Of a DNA stretch of 64,000 nucleotides, positions 36,157 to 48,946 are shown one piece after another (within the stretch, counting starts at the first letter, position 1; the number at the start of each line of letters is the position of its first letter). The position numbers and the translations under genes are program-made. The DNA lies in the NCBI RefSeq assembly GCF_005047595.1, contig NZ_SUPL01000002.1, positions 186,001-250,000 on the forward strand, given 5' to 3'. This DNA comes from Pontimicrobium aquaticum. GTDB taxonomy: Bacteria > Bacteroidota > Bacteroidia > Flavobacteriales > Flavobacteriaceae. The notes below the pieces were generated by a model that was given only the letters and a program-made list of their open reading frames with translations, was not told the DNA's origin and did no database searches.

Positions 36157-36337
36157 ATATACTTTATATTTAGTTTGTATTGATAAAATCAACGTGTTTT
36201 CAAGAAAGATATTTCTGAAAATTATGGTTGAATCTAAATGTTAATATGGAGCATCCTAAGATAGGAATTTTGAAAAAGCTTTACTATATAGAATAATTTT
36301 TTAACATATTCTTAAGTGTAAAACTGAATTAATATTT

Positions 36338-36369
36338 TTTTTAATTAAAAATGTGTTTTTAATTAAAAA
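36338..36369. repeat. pair of 14-base AT palindromes
   Basis: TTTTTAATTAAAAA occurs at 36338-36351 and 36356-36369, with four bases between and 18 bases from centre to centre. Both are perfect palindromes. They sit between the divergent tldD-like gene and the copper locus and could be an operator or a DNA-bending site, though simple AT richness is an alternative. Confidence 0.45.
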
Positions 36370-36372
36370 ATA

Positions 36373-36380
36373 CAAAAGTA
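36373..36380 (-). promoter_or_regulatory. possible TAnnTTTG promoter box for tldD-like gene
   Basis: TACTTTTG on the minus strand matches the Bacteroidota -7 box TAnnTTTG. It lies about 217 bases upstream of the start at 36156, a long leader. No clear -33 partner was seen. Confidence 0.3.
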
Positions 36381-36559
36381 TGATTCTTAAAATAGATCAA
36401 ATTGTATTTTTTAGACATTAAAAATCAGAAACTGATGTGTCAATAATTACAGAAATATTTTAACTTTTTGTCAATAGTCAACATATAATTATAAAAAAAA
36501 CATACACTTTTAGGTGTGTTAACTTATTGCTAAAAAGACAAGTAATATGTTATTTTTTG

Positions 36560-36567
36560 TATCTTTG
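36560..36567 (+). promoter_or_regulatory. TAnnTTTG promoter box of the copper locus
   Basis: TATCTTTG matches the Bacteroidota -7 box TAnnTTTG and ends only 8 bases before the ATG at 36576. A transcript starting a few bases after it would have almost no leader. Confidence 0.6.
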
Positions 36568-36575
36568 TTACTGCA

Positions 36576-36989
36576 ATGAAATCTATGCTCCATAAAATAT
36601 TATCTATTGCTATGGCATTTGTAGTACTACTTTCTACAATGTCCTTTACCATAAGTAAGCATTATTGTGGCGATACACTTGTTGATACTTCTTTGTTTAG
36701 AGAAGTAAAATCTTGTGGTATGGAAATGCAAAATTCTTCAAGCAAAGATTGTTCAGTAATAAAGAAGAATTGTTGTAGCGAAGAGCAAGAACTAGTCAAA
36801 GGACAAGACGATTTAAAACTTGACTTTACTAAGTTAGATTTGCAGCAAAAAATATTTGTAAGCACTTTTGTTTTTAGTTACATCAATCTTTTTGAGAGTG
36901 TTGCAAAAGAAACCATTCAATTTAAAGATTATTCACCTCCTCTCATAGTCAAGGATATATATATACTTGACGAAGTTTATTTAATTTGA
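36576..36989 (+). CDS. HYC_CC_PP family exported protein
   Basis: 137 residues. A signal peptide ends near SFTISK. The mature part has H29-Y30-C31, the pair C66-C67 in KKNCCSEE and Y119-S-P-P122 near the C-terminus, the three marks that give the HYC_CC_PP family its name. Members sit beside CusA genes in Bacteroidota, as here. The two cysteines and the histidine are candidate metal ligands; the role (metallochaperone or sensor) is not proven. The start is set by a promoter box that leaves a very short leader. Confidence 0.85.
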   Translation: MKSMLHKILSIAMAFVVLLSTMSFTISKHYCGDTLVDTSLFREVKSCGMEMQNSSSKDCSVIKKNCCSEEQELVKGQDDLKLDFTKLDLQQKIFVSTFVFSYINLFESVAKETIQFKDYSPPLIVKDIYILDEVYLI

Positions 36990-37098: not shown

Positions 37099-40000
37099 AT
37101 GCTAAATAAAAGCATCAAATTTTTAATAGAAAACAAATTAGTTTCAGTACTTCTTCTAGTGCTTTGTATTGGATGGGGAATCACCAATGCACCATTTAAT
37201 TGGGATACAGGATTTTTTCCTAGAAACCCTGTGGCAGTTGATGCTATTCCTGATATTGGTGAAAATCAACAAATAGTATTTACCAAATGGGAAGGGCGTT
37301 CACCACAAGATATTGAAGATCAAATAAGTTATCCTTTAACAACCTCTTTACTCGGAATTCCAGGTGTGAAAACTATTCGCAGTTCCTCCATGTTTGGTTT
37401 TTCAAGTATCTATATCATTTTTGAAGAAGATGTAGAGTTTTATTGGAGCAGAAGTAGAATTCTGGAAAAATTAAATTCTTTGCCTGCAGGATTGCTGCCA
37501 AGTAATGTGCAACCAGCTTTAGGACCAGATGCAACAGGTTTAGGACAAATATTTTGGTACACCTTAGAAGGTCGCGACGAACAAGGAAACGTTACAGGAG
37601 GTTGGGATTTGCATGAGTTAAGAAGTGTTCAGGATTATTATGTAAAATATGGATTATCATCAGCATCAGGAGTGTCTGAAGTAGCATCAATTGGAGGGTA
37701 TGTTCAAGAATATCAAATAGACGTAAATCCTAATGTTTTAAAAGAATATGATATATCGTTACAGCAAGTAGTTAATGCCGTTAGAGATACTAATAAAGAT
37801 ATTGGTGCTAAAACTATCGAAATTAATAGAGCTGAATACTTAGTTCGAGGTTTGGGTTACGTAAAATCTATTAGCGATATAGAGAATGCTGTAGTGACTT
37901 CAGAAAACAATGTGCCAATTTTTATTAAAGATGTCTCAAAAGTATCACTTGGTCCAGCGGAGAGAAGAGGTATTCTGGATAAAGAAGGAGCCGAAGTTGT
38001 TGGTGGCGTCGTTGTAGCACGTTATGGTGCCAATCCAATGGAAGTTATTACTAAGGTGAAGAAGCAGATTGTAGAAATTAGTAAAGGCTTGCCATCTAAA
38101 GTACTAAAAGACGGCCGCACATCGCAATTGACCATCGTGCCTTTTTATGATAGGACCGAATTGATTCAAGAAACACTCAATACACTTGACGAAGCACTCA
38201 CCCTAGAAATTCTTATTACCATTCTAGTCATTATTGTGATGGTATTTAATTTAAGAGCTTCAGTGTTAATTTCTGGATTGTTACCTGTAGCTGTACTCAT
38301 GGTATTTATAGGTATGAAGTTTTTTGGAGTAGATGCTAATATTGTAGCGCTTTCAGGTATTGCCATTGCTATTGGAACGATGGTAGATGTTGGTGTAATT
38401 CTCTCCGAAAATATTATCAGGCATATTGATGATGACGAATCGAAAACTCCAGTTAATGAAGTCGTTTTTATAGCAACAAAAGAGGTTTCTGGAGCGATTC
38501 TTACAGCAGTAATGACCACGATTATAAGTTTTATTCCTGTCTTTACAATGATTGGAGCCGAAGGAAAACTATTTAGACCTTTAGCAGCAACAAAAACCAT
38601 GGCTTTAGTCGCCTCTGTAATAGTCGCGTTGTTTTTAATTCCACCTTTTGCAGCATGGTTATTTGGTTGGAAATCACCTAAGAAAAACATTGGACTTGCG
38701 TTAAATGCTGCTTTAGCTTTATTCGGAATTTTTACTGTCTTCAGTGGTTATACATTAGGAGTTATTCTCATTGCATTTGCAGTGGTTAACTTCTTAAAAT
38801 CAAACCAAACTTTATCCTATAAACAAGCTAATATTATCAATATTGTAATCTCAGCTATTGCTATTGTGATGCTTTTAAGTGTGTATTGGCGTCCTTTAGG
38901 TGTCGATTATAGTTTGGTGTCTAACATTATTTTTGTTGGTATCATCTGCTTTGGTTTGTTAGGTGTTTTTACTGTGTTTAGACAATATTATGTGCGCATT
39001 TTAACTTGGGCTTTAGCAAATAAATTACTCTTTTTAAGTATTCCTGCTTTAATTGTGTTTTTTGGAATTAATATATGGAACAATACTGGAAAAGAATTTA
39101 TGCCTTCATTAAATGAAGGATCTTTCTTGTTGATGCCAACCTCTTTGCCACATTCAGGCGTTGAAGAAAATAAACGTGTGTTACAACAGTTAGATATGGC
39201 TGTGGCTACTATTCCTGAAATCAAAACGGTTGTTGGTAAAGCTGGTCGAGTTGAAAGCGCACTCGACCCTGCGCCATTATCCATGTACGAAAATGTTATT
39301 ATCTATAAACCAGAATATAAACTGAATGATGAAGGCAAGCGTGAGACATTTAAAGTCAATGAGGATGGATTGTTCGAAACGATGTCTGGAACTTTCGTGG
39401 CTTCTGGAACCAAAATCGAAACTAATAATTTAATTGTTGATGAAGATGGTGAATACTATCGTAACTGGCGATCACATATTAAATCTGCTGACGATATATG
39501 GAAAGAGATTGTTAATGTCACTAAATTACCTGGAGTGACTTCTGCTCCAAAATTACAGCCTATAGAAACGCGCTTGGTGATGCTACAAACTGGTATGAGA
39601 GCACCAATGGGAATCAAAGTTAAAGGACAAGACTTAAGACAAATAGAAAGCTTTGGATTGCAACTTGAAAACATTTTAAAACAAGTTGAAGGTGTTAAAA
39701 AAGAAGCGGTATTTGCAGATAGAATTGTTGGAAAACCTTATTTGTTAATTGATATTGATAGAAAAAAAATTGCACGTTATGGTATTTCTATTGATGAAGT
39801 GCAATCGGTTTTAGAAGTGGCAGTTGGTGGAAAAGTATTAACTCAAACGGTCGAGGGAAGAGAGCGTTATGGAGTTCGTGTACGTTATCCAAGAGAACAA
39901 CGAGACAGTCCTGAAGACTTAGGAAATATTTATGTGCCAACGTCTAAAGGAAATCCTATTCCGTTAAAAGAGTTGGTTGATATAAAGTATGAGCAAGGAC

Positions 40001-40776
40001 CACAAGTAATAAAAAGTGAGGACACTTTTTTAGTAGGCTACGTGCTGTTTGATAAACTAGATGGACAAGCAGAAGTAACAGTAGTAGAGAATGCTCAAAA
40101 AGCAATACAAGGAGCTATAGAACGTGAAGAATTGATAGTTCCAAAAGGTATTAACTATCAATTTACAGGTGCTTACGAAAACCAATTAAGGGCAGAAAAA
40201 ACACTGTCAGTAGTAGTGCCTTTGGCATTGATTATCATCTTTTTAATACTGTATTTTCAATTTAGGTCAGTAGCTACATCGTTAATGGTATTTACAGGTA
40301 TTGCAGTGGCATTTTCAGGCGGTTTTATTATGATTTGGTTGTATGGAGAATCTTGGTTTTTAAATATTGACCTTTTTGGCTTTAATCTTAGAGAGTTATT
40401 TCAGATGAATCCAATAAACTTAAGTGTTGCTGTTTGGGTTGGGTTTATTGCCTTATTTGGCATTGCAACAGACGATGGTGTGGTCATGGCAACGTATTTA
40501 ACACAAACTTTTAATAAAAATGCACCAAAGTCAAAAGCAGACATAAGAGCCTCTGTTATTGAGGCAGGAGAAAAACGAATTAGACCATGCTTAATGACCA
40601 CAGCAACAACACTTTTAGCATTGTTACCAATACTAACCTCGACAGGACGAGGTAGCGATATTATGATCCCTATGGCTATTCCAAGTTTTGGAGGAATGCT
40701 TATTGCTTTAATTACATTGTTTGTTGTTCCAGTATTATACAGTTGGAGTAAAGAAATATCACTAAAACAAATTTAA
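37099..40776 (+). CDS. cusA: CusA-type Cu(I)/Ag(I) RND efflux pump
   Basis: 1225 residues, the inner-membrane pump of a tripartite heavy-metal efflux system, driven by proton influx. It has the usual first helix, two periplasmic loops and paired helices; TM4 carries AIGTMVDVGVILSEN. Compared with E. coli CusA, the three metal-binding methionines appear to be M679 (LLMPTSLP), M729 (PLSMYENV) and M828 (VMLQTGM): the first pair is 50 apart, as in E. coli, and the third is displaced by an insertion of about 50 residues. About 120 extra residues with additional helices lie between the first and second membrane halves. Such insertions occur in Bacteroidota members. It begins 109 bases behind the HYC_CC_PP gene and is followed by the TolC gene after one base. 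Confidence 0.93.
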   Translation: MLNKSIKFLIENKLVSVLLLVLCIGWGITNAPFNWDTGFFPRNPVAVDAIPDIGENQQIVFTKWEGRSPQDIEDQISYPLTTSLLGIPGVKTIRSSSMFGFSSIYIIFEEDVEFYWSRSRILEKLNSLPAGLLPSNVQPALGPDATGLGQIFWYTLEGRDEQGNVTGGWDLHELRSVQDYYVKYGLSSASGVSEVASIGGYVQEYQIDVNPNVLKEYDISLQQVVNAVRDTNKDIGAKTIEINRAEYLVRGLGYVKSISDIENAVVTSENNVPIFIKDVSKVSLGPAERRGILDKEGAEVVGGVVVARYGANPMEVITKVKKQIVEISKGLPSKVLKDGRTSQLTIVPFYDRTELIQETLNTLDEALTLEILITILVIIVMVFNLRASVLISGLLPVAVLMVFIGMKFFGVDANIVALSGIAIAIGTMVDVGVILSENIIRHIDDDESKTPVNEVVFIATKEVSGAILTAVMTTIISFIPVFTMIGAEGKLFRPLAATKTMALVASVIVALFLIPPFAAWLFGWKSPKKNIGLALNAALALFGIFTVFSGYTLGVILIAFAVVNFLKSNQTLSYKQANIINIVISAIAIVMLLSVYWRPLGVDYSLVSNIIFVGIICFGLLGVFTVFRQYYVRILTWALANKLLFLSIPALIVFFGINIWNNTGKEFMPSLNEGSFLLMPTSLPHSGVEENKRVLQQLDMAVATIPEIKTVVGKAGRVESALDPAPLSMYENVIIYKPEYKLNDEGKRETFKVNEDGLFETMSGTFVASGTKIETNNLIVDEDGEYYRNWRSHIKSADDIWKEIVNVTKLPGVTSAPKLQPIETRLVMLQTGMRAPMGIKVKGQDLRQIESFGLQLENILKQVEGVKKEAVFADRIVGKPYLLIDIDRKKIARYGISIDEVQSVLEVAVGGKVLTQTVEGRERYGVRVRYPREQRDSPEDLGNIYVPTSKGNPIPLKELVDIKYEQGPQVIKSEDTFLVGYVLFDKLDGQAEVTVVENAQKAIQGAIEREELIVPKGINYQFTGAYENQLRAEKTLSVVVPLALIIIFLILYFQFRSVATSLMVFTGIAVAFSGGFIMIWLYGESWFLNIDLFGFNLRELFQMNPINLSVAVWVGFIALFGIATDDGVVMATYLTQTFNKNAPKSKADIRASVIEAGEKRIRPCLMTTATTLLALLPILTSTGRGSDIMIPMAIPSFGGMLIALITLFVVPVLYSWSKEISLKQI

Positions 40777-40777
40777 A

Positions 40778-41995
40778 ATGAAAATAAAATATAGTTATAC
40801 AATCGGTTTTACATTATTAATCTTTAACATTTGTAGCGCTCAAAGACTTCAAGATTATCTAAATATAGCCAAGGCTAATAGTTCTGAAATACAAGAGAAA
40901 CATCTAGAGTATGTATTGTTTCAAGAAAAAGTAAATGAAACAGGGAATTTAGAAGATACTTATGTAAGTGTTGGTCCATTTGTGTCAACACCTGAAACTA
41001 GAGTAGGGGCCCAAATAATTAAATTTGGAATAGAACAGCGGTTACCTTGGTTTGGAACTTTTAATGCTGAAAAATCTTATGCAGAAGCTATTTCGGAAAC
41101 CAAACAGTTTGACGCTAACTTAGCTGAAAGAGAATTGTTATTTCAAGTAAAGACGTTGTATTATGAGTTGTATCAAAAATATAAAATAGAGAAGATACTT
41201 AAGGATAATAAGCAAATTTTGACCACCTATGAAAATATGGCATTGTCGGCTTTAGAAAACAATAAAGCAACGATGAGCGATGTGCTAAAAATAAAAGTTC
41301 AAAAAAATGAATTGCATAGTAACATCTTTAAAAACCTTAACGAAATAGAAGCGTTAAATAAAAATTTTAATAGGTTATTACAACAAGATATAAATACGCA
41401 AATAGTAATTGTTGATAGCTTAAGTGTTTTAGATATTATGATGGAAGAAGTAACAATTAATAGCCATCCTAGTTTGTCTAAAATTGAAATTTATAATAAG
41501 GTTTATCAAGCGGAGAACGATTTAATTGATAAGGAAAAACGTCCAACATTATCCTTTGGGTTAGATTATATTTTGGTTGAAGAGCGTCAAGATTTAAAGC
41601 TAAACGACAACGGAAAAGATATTGTGATGCCCAAAATAGCTTTGTCTATTCCAATTTTTACTAAAAAATACACGTCTAAATCAGCTCAAGTTAAAATTAA
41701 GCAAGAGTCACTTCATTCAAAAAAAGAAACCCAAAAAAAGCAACTAGAAATGGCGCTTCAAACCAGTAGTCTAGAATTAGATAATGCTATTTTAAATGTA
41801 GTCGCTGCACAAAAAAATACAGTTGAAACACAAATAGCAATAGATGTGGACTTAAAAGCTTATGAAACAGGGATTTTAGATTATGATAAAATATTAAACC
41901 TCCAGTTGCAAAAAATAAAATTTCAGCTCATGGAAATTAAAGGTGTTAAAGAGGCATTTGTCGCAAAAGCTAAAATGGAATATTTGACTAAATAA
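40778..41995 (+). CDS. TolC-family outer-membrane efflux protein
   Basis: 405 residues with a signal peptide ending in ICSAQ. The chain has two alpha-helical coiled-coil repeats with LEQ-like heptads, and ends in YDKILNLQLQKIKFQLMEIKG, typical of TolC-type channel proteins. It would be the outer-membrane exit channel of the CusA pump (CusC role). It follows cusA by one base and precedes the HMA-AraC gene by five, so all are on one transcript. Confidence 0.88.
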   Translation: MKIKYSYTIGFTLLIFNICSAQRLQDYLNIAKANSSEIQEKHLEYVLFQEKVNETGNLEDTYVSVGPFVSTPETRVGAQIIKFGIEQRLPWFGTFNAEKSYAEAISETKQFDANLAERELLFQVKTLYYELYQKYKIEKILKDNKQILTTYENMALSALENNKATMSDVLKIKVQKNELHSNIFKNLNEIEALNKNFNRLLQQDINTQIVIVDSLSVLDIMMEEVTINSHPSLSKIEIYNKVYQAENDLIDKEKRPTLSFGLDYILVEERQDLKLNDNGKDIVMPKIALSIPIFTKKYTSKSAQVKIKQESLHSKKETQKKQLEMALQTSSLELDNAILNVVAAQKNTVETQIAIDVDLKAYETGILDYDKILNLQLQKIKFQLMEIKGVKEAFVAKAKMEYLTK

Positions 41996-42000
41996 GCATT

Positions 42001-42558
42001 ATGAATAGTGTTTTATATATAAAAAATATGGTTTGTAGCCGCTGTAAAAAAACAGTTTTAGCCCTATTAGTTCAGGAGGGCTTTGAAGTGGAGTCTATTC
42101 AACTTGGTAAAATAGTTGTAAAAGAAACTCAAAACAATGATTATGTAAAACTAGAGAGACAGTTAAATGATTTAGGTTTTGAGCTTATTAAAGACTCTTC
42201 CAAAGCATTAGTTGAAAAAATTAAAATAGCCCTCATACAACAAATAGATAAAGGTGATACCGAAGGTATTCTTTCTAAACTTGCAGATGATTTAGGCAAA
42301 AACTATTCATTTTTGAGTAAAACCTTCAGTAAATCTGAAGGTATTACACTTGAAAAGTATTTTATCAACTTGAAAATAGAAAAAGCTAAAGAACACATCC
42401 AATTGAATCAGTGTAATTTTTCTGAAATAGCTTACAGCCTTAATTATAAAAATAGTAGCCATCTAGCAAAACAGTTTAAACAGGTAACAGGAATGACAAT
42501 GTCAGATTATAAAAATTTACATAATCATAATAGAAAAGGGTTAGACAAAATTGTATAA
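42001..42558 (+). CDS. HMA-like metal-binding AraC-type regulator
   Basis: 185 residues. The first 65 residues start LYIKNMVCSRCKKTV with C12-x-x-C15, the position and context of the CxxC metal site of HMA copper-chaperone domains. The C-terminal half (about 95-175) is an AraC-type DNA-binding domain (LSKLADDLGKNYSFLSKTF, then YSLNYKNSSHLAKQFKQVTGMTMSDYK). It lacks the long sensor domain or membrane helices of usual AraC proteins, and the HMA-like domain could sense Cu(I) itself. It lies inside the copper operon, between the TolC gene and the copper ATPase. It is a strong candidate for the local regulator; target sites are unknown. Confidence 0.75.
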   Translation: MNSVLYIKNMVCSRCKKTVLALLVQEGFEVESIQLGKIVVKETQNNDYVKLERQLNDLGFELIKDSSKALVEKIKIALIQQIDKGDTEGILSKLADDLGKNYSFLSKTFSKSEGITLEKYFINLKIEKAKEHIQLNQCNFSEIAYSLNYKNSSHLAKQFKQVTGMTMSDYKNLHNHNRKGLDKIV

Positions 42559-42632
42559 GTATTAATCATAATTAGGAAAACTAAAAATTGCTTTATGAAT
42601 TAGTTTTATGGGTTAATTATAAATTTAAGAAA

Positions 42633-45356
42633 ATGAAACACAAATATCAAATACAAGGAATGACTTGCAAAGGTTGTTTAAGAACTGTAAAGAATGCATT
42701 GTCGGAAGTTCAAGGTGTAGTTGATGTGGCTATTGATTTTGAAAATAAAACAGCCAAGATTGAAATGGGTCAACATATTGAAATTGAAAAATTTGAACAG
42801 GCGGTTCAAGAAAAGAAAAGTAAGTATCATATACATCCTTTCAAATCTGATGGTATAAAAACACGTAAATATCCTATCAACGGGATGACGTGTAACGGTT
42901 GTAGGTCGCACGTAGAAAAAACACTTGCTAAAGTTGATGGTGTTGTAGAGGTTACTGTTAATTTAGAAAAAGCCGAAGCAGTTATTGATATGGAAACTAT
43001 CATTCCTTTTGAGACGTTTCAAGAAACCTTAAAAAAAGATGGGGATACTTACACCATTTACAAAGCAGGTCAACGCCCAGAATCTAATCAAGATAAAAAA
43101 CAGAAACCAAAAGGAAAAGGCACAGGCACATTTTATTGTCCTATGCATTGCGAGGGTGAGAAAACTTACGACAAATCTGGTGATTGTCCTGTCTGCGGAA
43201 TGGATTTGGTTGAAGAACAAAATTTATCAGCAATTTCAAAGGAGCAATGGACCTGTCCTATGCATCCAGAAATTGTAAAAGACGAAGCAGGTTCCTGTCC
43301 AATCTGTGAAATGAATTTAGTGCCAATGCAACCTGAACTTTCAGAAGAAGAAAAGGCTTATAAAAAATTATTAAAGAAATTTTGGATAGCTACAGCATTC
43401 ACCTTACCAATTTTTTTAATTGCAATGAGTGAAATGCTAACCAATAATCCATTATACGACATAATGGAACAGAAATATTGGAACTGGATTCAGTTTGTAT
43501 TATCTATTCCAGTAGTGTTTTATGCCACTTGGATATTTTTTGAACGAGCTTACAGAAGTATCAAAACGTGGAATCTCAATATGTTCACCCTTATTGGTGT
43601 TGGTGCAGGTGTGTCGTGGTTGTTTAGTGTTTTTGGTATGTTTTTTACTGATATCTTTCCTGAACAATTTAAAACCGAATTAGGCGCTGTTCATGTATAT
43701 TTCGAGGCTGCAACGGTCATTTTAACATTAGTGTTGTTAGGGCAATTGTTAGAAGCTCGTGCGCATAGTAAAACCAATTCGGCAGTAAAGGAACTGCTAA
43801 AGTTAGCACCAAATAAAGCCATAAAAATTGTGGATAACGAAGAGGTTGAAGTCAGTATTGACGAAATAGAACTCAACGATATTCTAAAAGTAAAACCAGG
43901 CGATAAAATTCCTGTAGATGGTGTCATTACAGAAGGCGATACCAGTATTGACGAATCAATGATTACTGGTGAACCTATTCCTGTAAACAAAGCTGTAGAT
44001 GATAGAGTAAGTAGCGGAACAATTAACGGGAATCAATCCTTTTTAATGAAAGCTGAAAAGGTAGGAAGTGATACTTTATTATCACAAATCATTCATATGG
44101 TAAATGATGCCAGTAGAAGTCGTGCACCTATTCAAAATTTAGCAGACAAAGTTTCGGGTTATTTTGTTCCAGTTGTAGTAATCATTTCGGTTATCACATT
44201 TATTGTATGGTCTATTTGGGGACCAGAACCAGCTTACGTCTATGCCTTGGTCAATGCAATTGCAGTTTTAATCATTGCATGTCCTTGTGCATTAGGTTTG
44301 GCAACACCAATGTCAGTAATGGTTGGAGTGGGTAAAGGTGCTCAAAATGGTGTATTGATTAAAAATGCCGAAGCTCTTGAAAAAATGAACAAGGTTGATA
44401 CATTAATAGTTGACAAAACGGGAACCATTACCCAAGGTAAGCCAACAGTTGAAGCCGTAGGTGCTTTTAGCGATGCTTTAAGTGAAAAAGAAGTGTTACA
44501 ATACATCGTTTCACTAAACACAAATAGTGAACACCCTTTAGCAGAAGCTACCGTTAAATATGGAAAAGAGCATAATGCTGAAATACTAAAGTCCGAAGAT
44601 TTTAGTGCTGTTACCGGAAAAGGTGTTGAAGCCAAAATTGATAGCAAAAATGTAGCATTGGGTAATCCTAAAATGATGGAATATGCCAAAGCAGAAATTA
44701 CACCTACAATAAAAGAAGAAGCTAAAAGGTATCAAAAACAAGGAAAAACTGTTTCGTATTTAGCCATAGATAAAATAATAGTCGGTTATGTAGTTATTGG
44801 CGATAAAATAAAAGAAACAAGTGCCAAAGCGATTAAGGAACTTCAAGAAAAAGGTATTGATGTGATTATGCTTACAGGCGATAACCACAATACAGCACAA
44901 GCAGTCGCATCTAAGTTAAATCTGGCAGATTTTAAAGCCAGTATGTTACCACAAGACAAACTAAAAGAAGTAGAAAAACTACAAGAAAACGGAAAAGTGG
45001 TTGCTATGGCAGGTGATGGCATTAACGATGCTCCAGCATTGGCTAAAAGTGACGTAGGTATTGCTATGGGAACAGGAACAGATGTAGCCATTGAAAGTGC
45101 AATGATAACATTAGTAAAAGGCGATTTAAACGGAATTGTAAAAGCCAAAAATTTAAGTAAGGCTGTAATGAAAAACATCAAGCAAAATCTGTTTTTTGCT
45201 CTTATTTATAACACATTAGGAGTGCCAATTGCAGCGGGTGTTTTGTTTCCATTCTTTGGAATACTGCTCTCGCCAATGATAGCAGCTTTAGCTATGAGTT
45301 TTAGTTCTGTTTCAGTAATAGCAAACGCATTAAAATTAAAAAATATTAAAATATAA
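42633..45356 (+). CDS. copA: copper-exporting P-type ATPase, CopA-like
   Basis: 907 residues from the ATG at 42633; a longer frame starts with a TTG at 42588 and adds 15 unlikely residues. Two HMA domains have CxxC sites at C12/C15 (GMTCKGC) and C87/C90 (GMTCNGC). Two HMBD-type short domains follow (CPMHCEGEK...CPVCGMDL and CPMHPEI...CPICEMNL). The membrane part has the CPC motif (C550-P-C552), D594 in DKTGT and a GDGINDAPAL segment, the marks of a P1B-1 ATPase for Cu(I)/Ag(I) export from the cytosol. It lies 74 bases after the regulator gene and 4 bases before the adaptor gene. Confidence 0.95.
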   Translation: MKHKYQIQGMTCKGCLRTVKNALSEVQGVVDVAIDFENKTAKIEMGQHIEIEKFEQAVQEKKSKYHIHPFKSDGIKTRKYPINGMTCNGCRSHVEKTLAKVDGVVEVTVNLEKAEAVIDMETIIPFETFQETLKKDGDTYTIYKAGQRPESNQDKKQKPKGKGTGTFYCPMHCEGEKTYDKSGDCPVCGMDLVEEQNLSAISKEQWTCPMHPEIVKDEAGSCPICEMNLVPMQPELSEEEKAYKKLLKKFWIATAFTLPIFLIAMSEMLTNNPLYDIMEQKYWNWIQFVLSIPVVFYATWIFFERAYRSIKTWNLNMFTLIGVGAGVSWLFSVFGMFFTDIFPEQFKTELGAVHVYFEAATVILTLVLLGQLLEARAHSKTNSAVKELLKLAPNKAIKIVDNEEVEVSIDEIELNDILKVKPGDKIPVDGVITEGDTSIDESMITGEPIPVNKAVDDRVSSGTINGNQSFLMKAEKVGSDTLLSQIIHMVNDASRSRAPIQNLADKVSGYFVPVVVIISVITFIVWSIWGPEPAYVYALVNAIAVLIIACPCALGLATPMSVMVGVGKGAQNGVLIKNAEALEKMNKVDTLIVDKTGTITQGKPTVEAVGAFSDALSEKEVLQYIVSLNTNSEHPLAEATVKYGKEHNAEILKSEDFSAVTGKGVEAKIDSKNVALGNPKMMEYAKAEITPTIKEEAKRYQKQGKTVSYLAIDKIIVGYVVIGDKIKETSAKAIKELQEKGIDVIMLTGDNHNTAQAVASKLNLADFKASMLPQDKLKEVEKLQENGKVVAMAGDGINDAPALAKSDVGIAMGTGTDVAIESAMITLVKGDLNGIVKAKNLSKAVMKNIKQNLFFALIYNTLGVPIAAGVLFPFFGILLSPMIAALAMSFSSVSVIANALKLKNIKI

Positions 45357-45360
45357 TACT

Positions 45361-47079
45361 ATGAAAAAATATGTAATCTATTTAGGAATATTAGCTGTTG
45401 GTCTAATTTTGGGCTGGCTACTATTTGGCGGCTCAATAAATAAAGAGGCATCACATAATCACGATGAGGTTTCAGAAGGTAATACAATGTGGACATGCTC
45501 AATGCATCCGCAAGTCATGAAACCAGAATCTGGTGATTGCCCAATATGCGGTATGGATTTAATACCTGCTGAAGCTAATACTGATGGATTAGAAGTCAAT
45601 CAGTTTAAAATGACTGAGAACGCAATGGCATTGGCGAATATAGAAACAACAACTATTGGAGTAGGAGAGTCATCAGCTAATCAATTAACCTTGTCAGGTA
45701 AAATTCAAACCAATGATAAATCGAGCGCTATTCAAACAGCTCATTTTGGTGGGAGAATAGAGGTGTTAAATTTTAAAAGTAAAGGTGAATTTGTTAACCA
45801 TGGTGATGTTATAGCATCTATTTATTCTCCAGAATTAGTGACTGCTCAAAATGAGCTAATTGAAGCTATGGATATTAAAAATGAACAACCAGAATTGTAC
45901 AAAGCGGTAAGAAACAAGTTGAAGTTTTGGAAAATTTCTGAGCAACAAATAGAGAGGCTTGAACAAACTAAGAAAGTAATAACCAACTTTAAAATGTATG
46001 CCAATACTAAAGGGTATATTGAGGCAATTTTTGTTGAAGAAGGTAATCATGTTAAAGAAGGTACACCATTGTTCAAAGTGACGAATTTAAATACTGTTTG
46101 GGCGCAATTAGATGCATATGAACAAGATGTAAAAAGCTTAAGTCTTGGTCAGACTATTTTAATTACCGTAAATGCTTTTCCAGATAAAAACATTGAAGGG
46201 AAAATTGATTATATAAGTCCAACATTTAATGACAAAACCAGAACAATTCCAGTAAGGGCAACACTTAATAACCCAACAGAAACCTTGAAACCTGGGATGT
46301 TAATTTCTGCTACTACCAATTTAAAATCTAACGATAAAGAGGTTGTGTTAAGTATACCAAAATCGGCTGTTTTATGGACTGGGGAACGTTCTATAGTATA
46401 TGTAAAGGTGCCAAATGAATCACCAGTGTTCGAGCTAAGAGAAATAGCACTTAGCAATGCAGTTGGTGAAAACTATAAAGTGTTAAACGGATTGGAAGAA
46501 GGCGAAGAAATCGTTTCTAATGGGACATTTACAATAGATGCTGCTGCACAACTTAATGGAAAACAATCCATGATGAACCGCGTAATATTGAATGATGAAG
46601 ATTCTTCTAAAACGATAGAGAGACTCAAAGTGTCAACAACATTTCAAGAACAGCTTAAAACAGTAGTAGAAAGTTATCTTGTATTAAAAGATTATTTGGT
46701 GAGTGATGATGCTTCCAATACAGGAAAACAAGCAAAAATAGTACTCGACAACTTAGATAATGTGGATATGACACTTTTAGTAGATAATAGCGCTCATATG
46801 CAATGGATGGAACTCTTAAACAATATTAAAACTGCTGCAAATTCACTTTCAGAAGAAACCGATATTGCATCTCAACGTAAATATTTCAAACCATTATCCT
46901 CAAATATTACTAAAACCGTAGAGTTGTTTGGTATAAACCAAGCAGTATATTCACAATTCTGTCCTATGGCCGATGATGATAAAGGTGCTTATTGGTTAAG
47001 TTTAAGTAACGAGATAAGAAATCCATATTTTGGAGATGCTATGTTAAAATGCGGAAGTGTTGAAAAAATTATAAAATGA
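45361..47079 (+). CDS. cusB: CusB-type periplasmic adaptor with HMBD and DUF3347
   Basis: 572 residues. A membrane-anchoring N-terminus (ILAVGLILGWLLFGG) is followed by an HMBD-type CxMH...CPICGMDL site at about 40-65, a membrane-fusion adaptor core with the usual barrel-sandwich (GGRIEVLNF... and GYIEAIFVEEGN), and a C-terminal DUF3347-type domain (about 420-570, ending with FCPMADDDKGAYWLS). It connects the CusA pump with the outer channel and may pass metal. It starts 4 bases behind the ATPase gene. Confidence 0.92.
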   Translation: MKKYVIYLGILAVGLILGWLLFGGSINKEASHNHDEVSEGNTMWTCSMHPQVMKPESGDCPICGMDLIPAEANTDGLEVNQFKMTENAMALANIETTTIGVGESSANQLTLSGKIQTNDKSSAIQTAHFGGRIEVLNFKSKGEFVNHGDVIASIYSPELVTAQNELIEAMDIKNEQPELYKAVRNKLKFWKISEQQIERLEQTKKVITNFKMYANTKGYIEAIFVEEGNHVKEGTPLFKVTNLNTVWAQLDAYEQDVKSLSLGQTILITVNAFPDKNIEGKIDYISPTFNDKTRTIPVRATLNNPTETLKPGMLISATTNLKSNDKEVVLSIPKSAVLWTGERSIVYVKVPNESPVFELREIALSNAVGENYKVLNGLEEGEEIVSNGTFTIDAAAQLNGKQSMMNRVILNDEDSSKTIERLKVSTTFQEQLKTVVESYLVLKDYLVSDDASNTGKQAKIVLDNLDNVDMTLLVDNSAHMQWMELLNNIKTAANSLSEETDIASQRKYFKPLSSNITKTVELFGINQAVYSQFCPMADDDKGAYWLSLSNEIRNPYFGDAMLKCGSVEKIIK

Positions 47080-47215
47080 TTATTGTTTTTAAGATTTTAA
47101 CAAATCAACAATAAAAGTTTACATTTAATCTAATTTTTTGTTGGTTATAAGTAAGTATAGTATAAATTCGCAATACAAGACTATTTAGTCTTCTATTAAT
47201 TTGCCTTTTTTGCCT

Positions 47216-48946
47216 ATGAAATCACGATTACTAATCTGCATTATGAGTCTCACTTCTTTTGTTATGGTGTCACAGAATCCTATAACAATTCCAGGTACAA
47301 TTGAATCTACCAATGTGAATTTAACGCTTCAAACAGGAACGTTTCAATTTTTTCCTGGTCAAAATACTTCTACAATGGGAGCTAATGGATCTGTTTTAGG
47401 ACCAACACTTATAATGAATAACGGTGATAACATGAATATAAATATCACCAATAATTTAGGAGAAGACACCACGATACATTGGCATGGTATGCATGTATCT
47501 GCAGCAAATGATGGGGGTCCTCATACAGTAATTGGTGCTGGTCAAACTTGGAATCCTCAATTTGAGGTTATGGATAAAGCAGGAACTTATTGGTACCATC
47601 CACACCTTTTAAATCATACAGACGAACATGTTAGTAAAGGTATTTCAGGATTTATTATTGTTAAAGATACTGAAGAAACTGCTTTAAATTTACCTAGAAG
47701 CTATGGAGTTGATGATTTTCCTTTGGCTGTACAAACTAAGTCATTTGATGATTCCTATCAAATTAAAAGTGATGTGAATGACGACACCGCATTAATGGTC
47801 AATGCAACTATGAATGGTCAATTAGATGTGCCAGCACAAGTAGTGCGTTTAAGACTTTTAAATGGGTCTTCTCAACGAACCTTTAATTTTGGATTAACCG
47901 CAAATAGAACGTTTCATCTTATTGGAACAGATGGAGGTTTAGTTAACACTCCTTTGGCATTAACAAGATTACCATTATCTCCAGGAGCTAGAGCCGAAAT
48001 ATTAGTTGATTTTTCTGGTCTTCAAGGGCAAACAATTCACTTGATGAGTTATGCTTCTGAATTGACAAATGGTAACTATGGAGCTACGTACCCTGGAAAC
48101 TCACCTTCAAAACCATTAGATGGTTATAACCCGAATCCTTTAAATGGTGCCGATTTTAATGTGTTGCAGATGGATGTGGTTGCGCAAACAGCAAGTCCAA
48201 TAACAACAATTCCTTCAACGTTGGTAAATGATGTGCCTTTGGCTGAGGTGACTGCTGACGAAACAAGATCATTTAGGTTTGCTCCTTTAACTTCTGGTTC
48301 TCAACAACTAAATGGAGATTTTTCTATAAATGGGGTTACTATGGATATGAATGTGATTAATGTGACTGTACCTTTAAATAATACAGAGATTTGGACTTTA
48401 GAGAATTTTTCAGCTATTGCACATCCATTTCATATACATGATGTTCAGTTTTATATTTTAGATATTAATGGTAGTCCTCCACCTCTATATTTACAAGGAC
48501 GAAAAGATACTTTCATGGTACCATCAGGCGCAACAGCAAGAATAATTACCAAATTTAAAGATCATTTTGATGATACCATTCCTTACATGTACCATTGCCA
48601 TATGCTAAAACACGAGGATGCATTAGCAGGAATGATGGGACAATTTGTGGTAGTTGACCAAACAGCTGGTTTGGATGATTTGGAGTTGTCTAAAGATGCG
48701 GTTTTGTACCCTAATCCATCAAAAGGGTCTTACATGACGGTTAAGTTGCAAAAATCTTCAGAAAGTATTAAAGCATATTCAATTATTAATCAACTAGGCC
48801 AAATAGTAAGATACCATAAAGTTCACCAAAATGAGTTTAGTAATATGTATTCTTTTCCAATATTTGAATTGGCACAAGGACAGTATTTTATAAAAGTATT
48901 TACAGAAGATAGAATTATAACAAAAAAGTTTACAAAAAATCATTAA
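47216..48946 (+). CDS. multicopper oxidase with T9SS sorting domain
   Basis: 576 residues from the ATG at 47216 (a TTG-opened frame begins at 47201). Signal peptide to VMVSQ. The four copper motifs are present: HWHGMH (H88, H90, H93), YWYHPH (H128, H130), HPFHIHD and YHCHMLKHEDALAGM near the C-terminus. The last 80 residues hold the type A T9SS sorting domain, with LYPNPSKG. The enzyme would be secreted and oxidise Cu(I) to Cu(II) or other substrates at the cell surface. It lies 136 bases behind cusB, with the rest of the copper genes, and is closed by a strong terminator. Confidence 0.92.
   Translation: MKSRLLICIMSLTSFVMVSQNPITIPGTIESTNVNLTLQTGTFQFFPGQNTSTMGANGSVLGPTLIMNNGDNMNINITNNLGEDTTIHWHGMHVSAANDGGPHTVIGAGQTWNPQFEVMDKAGTYWYHPHLLNHTDEHVSKGISGFIIVKDTEETALNLPRSYGVDDFPLAVQTKSFDDSYQIKSDVNDDTALMVNATMNGQLDVPAQVVRLRLLNGSSQRTFNFGLTANRTFHLIGTDGGLVNTPLALTRLPLSPGARAEILVDFSGLQGQTIHLMSYASELTNGNYGATYPGNSPSKPLDGYNPNPLNGADFNVLQMDVVAQTASPITTIPSTLVNDVPLAEVTADETRSFRFAPLTSGSQQLNGDFSINGVTMDMNVINVTVPLNNTEIWTLENFSAIAHPFHIHDVQFYILDINGSPPPLYLQGRKDTFMVPSGATARIITKFKDHFDDTIPYMYHCHMLKHEDALAGMMGQFVVVDQTAGLDDLELSKDAVLYPNPSKGSYMTVKLQKSSESIKAYSIINQLGQIVRYHKVHQNEFSNMYSFPIFELAQGQYFIKVFTEDRIITKKFTKNH

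Follow-up and report, generated by a model that had tools for sequence, protein, structure and literature searches.

The protein encoded at positions 42001 to 42558 (+) of the window, which is the whole 64,000-nucleotide stretch analysed here (G000:C12:186001-250000, from a 3.3-Mb genome), joins a diverged HMA domain of the CopZ/CopA type, as read from its family profile and predicted structure, to an AraC-type DNA-binding domain. We consider it quite likely that this protein is a cytosolic one-component sensor of Cu(I) and Ag(I), which activates its own copper/silver efflux operon once the HMA domain has captured Cu(I). It is not peculiar to the source genome, and belongs to a phylum-wide family. 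By its sequence it is classed as an AraC-family one-component regulator in which the HMA domain would act as the sensor. Of the original prediction of a copper-sensing regulator, the conserved CxxC pair and the association with copper genes have stood; we infer from the sequence its other elements, namely metal binding, taken to be of Cu(I), DNA binding (here to a candidate element described below) and copper-dependent expression, as we do activation in preference to repression and the mechanism of switching.

The open reading frame starts with ATG and specifies 185 residues, with C12 and C15 placed within IKNMVCSRC (codons at 42034..42045, +). It is the sole regulator gene in a copper cluster carried on one strand, the forward one. 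The first gene of the presumed operon encodes a HYC_CC_PP family protein (36576..36989; NF047658, 132 bits), and is followed by genes for a CusA/CzcA-family RND metal efflux pump (37099..40776; TIGR00914, 783 bits) and a TolC-like outer membrane efflux protein (40778..41995; PF02321, E 2e-20). After the regulator come a CopA-like ATPase of the Cu(I) P1B-1 type, in which two HMA domains and two HMBD domains were recognised (42633..45356; TIGR01511, 582 bits; two matches each to PF00403 and PF19335), a CusB-like periplasmic adaptor (45361..47079; PF16576, with PRK09783 under its cut-off) and a multicopper oxidase with a T9SS sorting tail (47201..48946; PF07732, PF07731, PF18962). For the ATPase, the ATG at 42633 is a likelier start than the TTG at 42588 given in the list of open reading frames. 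As had been predicted, the regulator gene lies between the efflux channel and the copper ATPase, the latter being directly downstream. It starts 6 bp past the TolC-like gene, a gap so short that the two are very probably co-transcribed.

The DNA-binding half was readily recognised. Pfam placed HTH_18 at residues 94-171 (E 2e-12), and both models of the AraC double helix-turn-helix scored above their cut-offs (PF12833, 47.6 bits for a cut-off of 33.6; PF00165, 41.6 bits for 26.6); the domain occupies approximately residues 89-178 (42265..42534, +). No HMA domain was reported by Pfam for the single regulator sequence, and PF00403 reached an E of 0.01 in 15 of 98 family members, the protein of the window not being among them. 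A reading without HMA domain, taken from this single-sequence search, was overturned by the family profile: built from 98 homologues, it matched residues 3-62 with HMA domains from ATP7B, from Bacillus CopA and from CopZ (7xuk, 2e-10; 1p6t, 2e-7; 2qif, 1e-4), and residues 75-178 with AraC domains. Among the matches listed for this profile, no chain was matched over both the HMA and the AraC halves.

The AlphaFold model is confident (pLDDT 92.7) and consists of two domains. Its N-terminal elements (strand 2-8, helix 13-25, strand 29-34, strand 37-41, helix 48-57, strand 61-63) follow the beta-alpha-beta-beta-alpha-beta topology of HMA domains, with an MxCxxC metal site (M10, C12, C15) after the first strand, and a linker helix (66-84) joins this part to the AraC helices. 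Upon structure comparison, residues 1-64 (42001..42192, +) were found closest to GolB, CopZ and ATP7B HMA domains (Z 8.2-8.7, rmsd 1.7-2.0), and residues 65-176 to MarA, AraT and AraC domains (Z 12-15). Since a Z of about 8 is by itself weak for a common small fold, we base the HMA assignment on the sequence profile together with the conserved CxxC. Taken with the open reading frame, the profile, model and structure matches bear out the fusion of an HMA-like CxxC domain to an AraC domain within 185 residues.

Family matches (E below 1e-15) were found in 32 of 60 relatives, in 142 of the 296 genomes sampled for Bacteroidota and, within the window's own class, in 66 of 72; paralogs lacking the cysteines may be among those counted. 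Members are also carried by thirty plasmids, every one from a genus of Bacteroidota (Hymenobacter, Spirosoma and Mucilaginibacter, for example); on the two that were inspected, the gene is close to one for a heavy-metal P-type ATPase and to one for either a multicopper oxidase or a protein with a cupredoxin domain. Joint retention of the cysteine pair and the AraC part was one check that had been suggested, and an alignment of 98 diverse homologues bore it out. The family signature is KNMVCxRC: M10, C15 and G36 are invariant, I7, K8, N9, V11, C12 and R14 are each conserved in at least 90%, and the AraC DNA-binding domain is kept in 98 of the 98 members scanned. Some rows of this alignment were obtained with search patterns including C12, and conservation of the CxxC also holds in the homologue set found without such patterns. 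With conservation of this extent, the two cysteines do not stand together by chance.

Linkage to copper genes was scored on 145 distinct proteins from similarity searches independent of C12, the homologue set obtained with a C12-containing pattern being excluded from these statistics. Any relative of the window's P1B ATPase, HMA protein, CusA, CusB, TolC, HYC_CC_PP or multicopper oxidase was counted as a copper gene. Such a gene was present within 1.5 kb of 104 of the 126 MxCxxC members, a rate somewhat weighted towards the protein of the window, as 20 of the CxxC loci (L212-L231) were chosen for being its close relatives; the other 22 had none at that distance. When only P1B ATPases and HMA proteins at that distance were allowed, a stricter criterion, the count was 92 of 126. 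None of the 19 paralogs lacking the cysteine pair (14 with MVSxRC, 5 others) had a copper gene within 1.5 kb. In a tree made by a quick method, the CxxC proteins form one clade and the Cys-less ones two groups, which amounts to two independent evolutionary comparisons and not nineteen, so that a Fisher p-value overstates the linkage. In a phylum-wide set that included Cys-less proteins, a P1B ATPase or HMA protein was found within 4 kb in 41 of 60 cases. Linkage to copper efflux genes thus extends across species, as the prediction had it. The gene often stands directly upstream of copA or of an HMA protein: the Bizionia arctica member (L070), for instance, lies just before an HMA protein and approximately 3 kb before copA.

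The paralogs lacking the pair are of two kinds. In a conserved Cys-to-Ser clade with YMVSxRC (L153, L154, L156, L204, L263-L274), located away from copper genes, the translated neighbours in the loci inspected read as stress-related and other proteins, with a sigma factor, cupin, Dps-like and YceI-like proteins among them, and this clade may represent a stress regulator that lost metal sensing. The second group (L148-L152) has kept the length of the N-terminus without the CxxC, forms a clade of its own, and has no copper genes nearby.

The targets of the regulator had been guessed to lie at 36193-36575, upstream of the HYC_CC_PP gene. Twenty-four HYC_CC_PP promoters from related operons were aligned on the Bacteroidota -7 box, TAnnTTTG. 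In the window, this box is TATCTTTG (36560..36567, +), and a candidate operator, TAACTTATTGCTAA (TAA-N6-GCTAA; 36519..36532, +), is found 27 bp upstream of it. Flavobacteriaceae operon promoters carry TAA-N6-G(T/C)TAA positioned approximately 26 bp before the box; in many related promoters, GTTAA starts 31-33 bp before the box, with TAA 11 bp, one helical turn, further up. GTTAA at 31-34 bp was scored in 9 of 20 related promoters free of near duplicates and in 3 of 302 AT-rich controls (p 4e-10), and a leave-one-out matrix separated related from control promoters (p 2e-5), both p-values being optimistic as the element was first seen by eye in the same promoters that were later tested. Mean identity of the upstream 75 bp was 36% among related promoters and 30% among controls. 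By position, the pattern is found in the copper operon promoter of 10 out of 14 genomes, and about half of the related promoters do not have the element. A second copy occurs 21 bp on, closer to the -7 box, in three operons (L229, L207, L161). A positioned candidate element common to many related operons gives specific support to the predicted target region; its assignment to this regulator is limited by the fact that orthologous promoters stay conserved whatever binds them. Upstream of AraC-first operons across the phylum, no enrichment of the element was detected, and an open scan for dyads returned nothing convincing.

The pattern does not delimit a wider regulon: genome-wide, TAA-N6-GYTAA-N24-28-TAnnTTTG gave about 6 to 7 matches per genome, for about 4 to 5 with the reversed control. 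A very similar sequence, TAATGTAAGGTTAAA...CTAAATGTTAAAATGTTAATTTTG (L294:2488-2537, identical with G000:C17:347487-347536), was noted in most of the 14 flavobacterial genomes; in the source genome it has coaE on one side and a histidine kinase/response regulator pair on the other. It was also observed that no more than 8 bp separate the -7 box from the start codon of HYC_CC_PP (36560-36576), and 4-9 bp in relatives, which suggests a transcript with a very short leader or none.

The 11-bp internal spacing and the 21-bp direct repeat are as expected from the spacing rule of two AraC-type helix-turn-helices and of araI1-araI2, and the position of the element, approximately 26 bp before the -7 box, suggests class-II activation. 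We propose the following scheme. The HMA domain would capture Cu(I) through C12 and C15 in the manner of CopZ, and the attached AraC domain would change state as a result, perhaps through dimerisation bridged by copper. The holo-protein would then activate the operon comprising HYC_CC_PP, CusA, TolC, the regulator itself, CopA and CusB, acting from a class-II site just upstream of the -7 box, at the usual place of the -33 element. Copper-bridged dimerisation is a guess, made attractive because the model shows no evident domain of its own for dimerisation.

Three other readings of the same loci were weighed against copper-dependent activation. The protein might regulate the same operons in response to thiol redox state or to another soft metal (Ag, Au, Hg, Zn or Cd), with its CxxC forming a disulfide or binding that metal. 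CxxC pairs can indeed serve as redox switches, domains of the HMA type with a related fold bind Zn, Hg or Au, and one of the best structural matches is to GolB, which binds gold. We nevertheless find this reading unlikely, because CPC and MxxSS, signatures of the Cu(I) type, are found in most of the neighbouring ATPases, the profile matches are chiefly Cu(I) HMA domains, and the multicopper oxidase and CusA/CusB partners point to copper and silver. That the HMA part is mainly a chaperone or buffer exchanging Cu(I) with CopA, regulation by the AraC part being secondary or unrelated to copper, appears very improbable. HMA domains do exchange Cu(I) with those of CopA, and the frequent location of the gene directly before copA or an HMA protein would suit such a role, but the DNA-binding domain has been retained in every one of the members scanned, and stand-alone HMA proteins already adjoin in many loci.

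The last alternative concerns the sign of regulation: the protein would repress the operon and leave its promoter upon binding Cu(I). Repressors are known in the AraC family, CsoR and CopY repress copper operons autogenously, and the second copy of the element nearer to the -7 box, in the three operons mentioned above, could fit repression. However, the element overlaps neither the -7 box nor the start, and it ends at a distance from the box where an activator would be expected to touch polymerase and so stand in for a -33 element; we therefore hold repression to be quite unlikely, and retain activation by the copper-loaded protein as the preferred reading.

We also asked which other cytosolic copper sensors are present in the phylum. 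CsoR was not found in the source genome, and among the 72 genomes sampled from the window's class 5 have it. In the phylum, one family (f31, two genera) accounts for most genomes with CsoR, and this family is absent among the carriers of the HMA-AraC regulator; the two regulators look complementary across the phylum, a distribution confounded by phylogeny. The CueR cut-off was reached in none of the 296 Bacteroidota genomes. Relatives of the MerR type are widespread, and in parts of the phylum some of them score just under this cut-off (137.6 compared to 147.4 bits), so that a CueR-like sensor may exist there. In Bacteroidota, the HMA-AraC family probably fills the copper-sensor role held by other proteins in other bacteria. 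A bolder version would make it the main sensor of cytosolic Cu(I) in the class Bacteroidia, overlooked since Pfam misses the sensor domain, and would have it switch through HMA domains that pair via copper and so bring two AraC domains together on direct repeats; this is put forward as a rather doubtful, tentative extension.

The component domains are of known kinds; no paper in the literature searched, most subscription journals being outside its coverage, describes them combined into a copper regulator. For Bacteroidota, a review on marine bacteria lists only two-component and ECF copper systems and does not mention AraC (PMC10141476), and a gut-microbiome study describes CsoR as noticeably absent from Bacteroidales (PMC4938975). 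A 2024 survey of the flavobacterium Bizionia argentinensis reported MerR and CopY homologues lacking copper sites and, as candidates, only ArsR and two-component systems, with no convincing cytosolic Cu(I) regulator beyond the ArsR candidates; by text search, the word AraC does not occur in it (PMC11213822). Cytosolic copper sensing in Bacteroidota, a phylum abundant in guts and seas, thus appears unsettled in the literature searched, and the HMA-AraC family is a strong, directly testable candidate for the missing sensor.

Among AraC-family proteins, YbtA takes part in a copper response and has critical cysteines, C206 and C209; it differs from the present regulator in responding via the siderophore yersiniabactin (Cu(II)-Ybt), and no HMA domain is described for it (PMC8725597). 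Like MarA, SoxS and the AraC domain, minimal forms of the AraC/XylS family, the regulator has a C-terminal domain with two helix-turn-helices, judging by sequence and model, and a probable activator position; its sensor is an HMA domain in place of one of the cupin type or another ligand domain. Ada (N-Ada, 1u8b) also combines a cysteine-bearing metal domain with an AraC-type domain, and gave a partial structural match to residues 115-175. The metal domain of Ada binds zinc, repairs DNA and is not of the HMA fold, unlike that of the regulator. With CopZ, Atx1 and the HMA domains of CopA, the regulator has in common the fold and MxCxxC, but its signature is KNMVCxRC where theirs is usually GMTCxxC, and it is fused to a DNA-binding domain. 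Compared to CueR, of the MerR family, and to CsoR, it comes from an unrelated protein family, matching neither TIGR02044 (CueR) nor PF02583 (CsoR) in full Pfam and NCBIfam scans, and it would do the same job, that is, cytosolic sensing of Cu(I) and control of copA.
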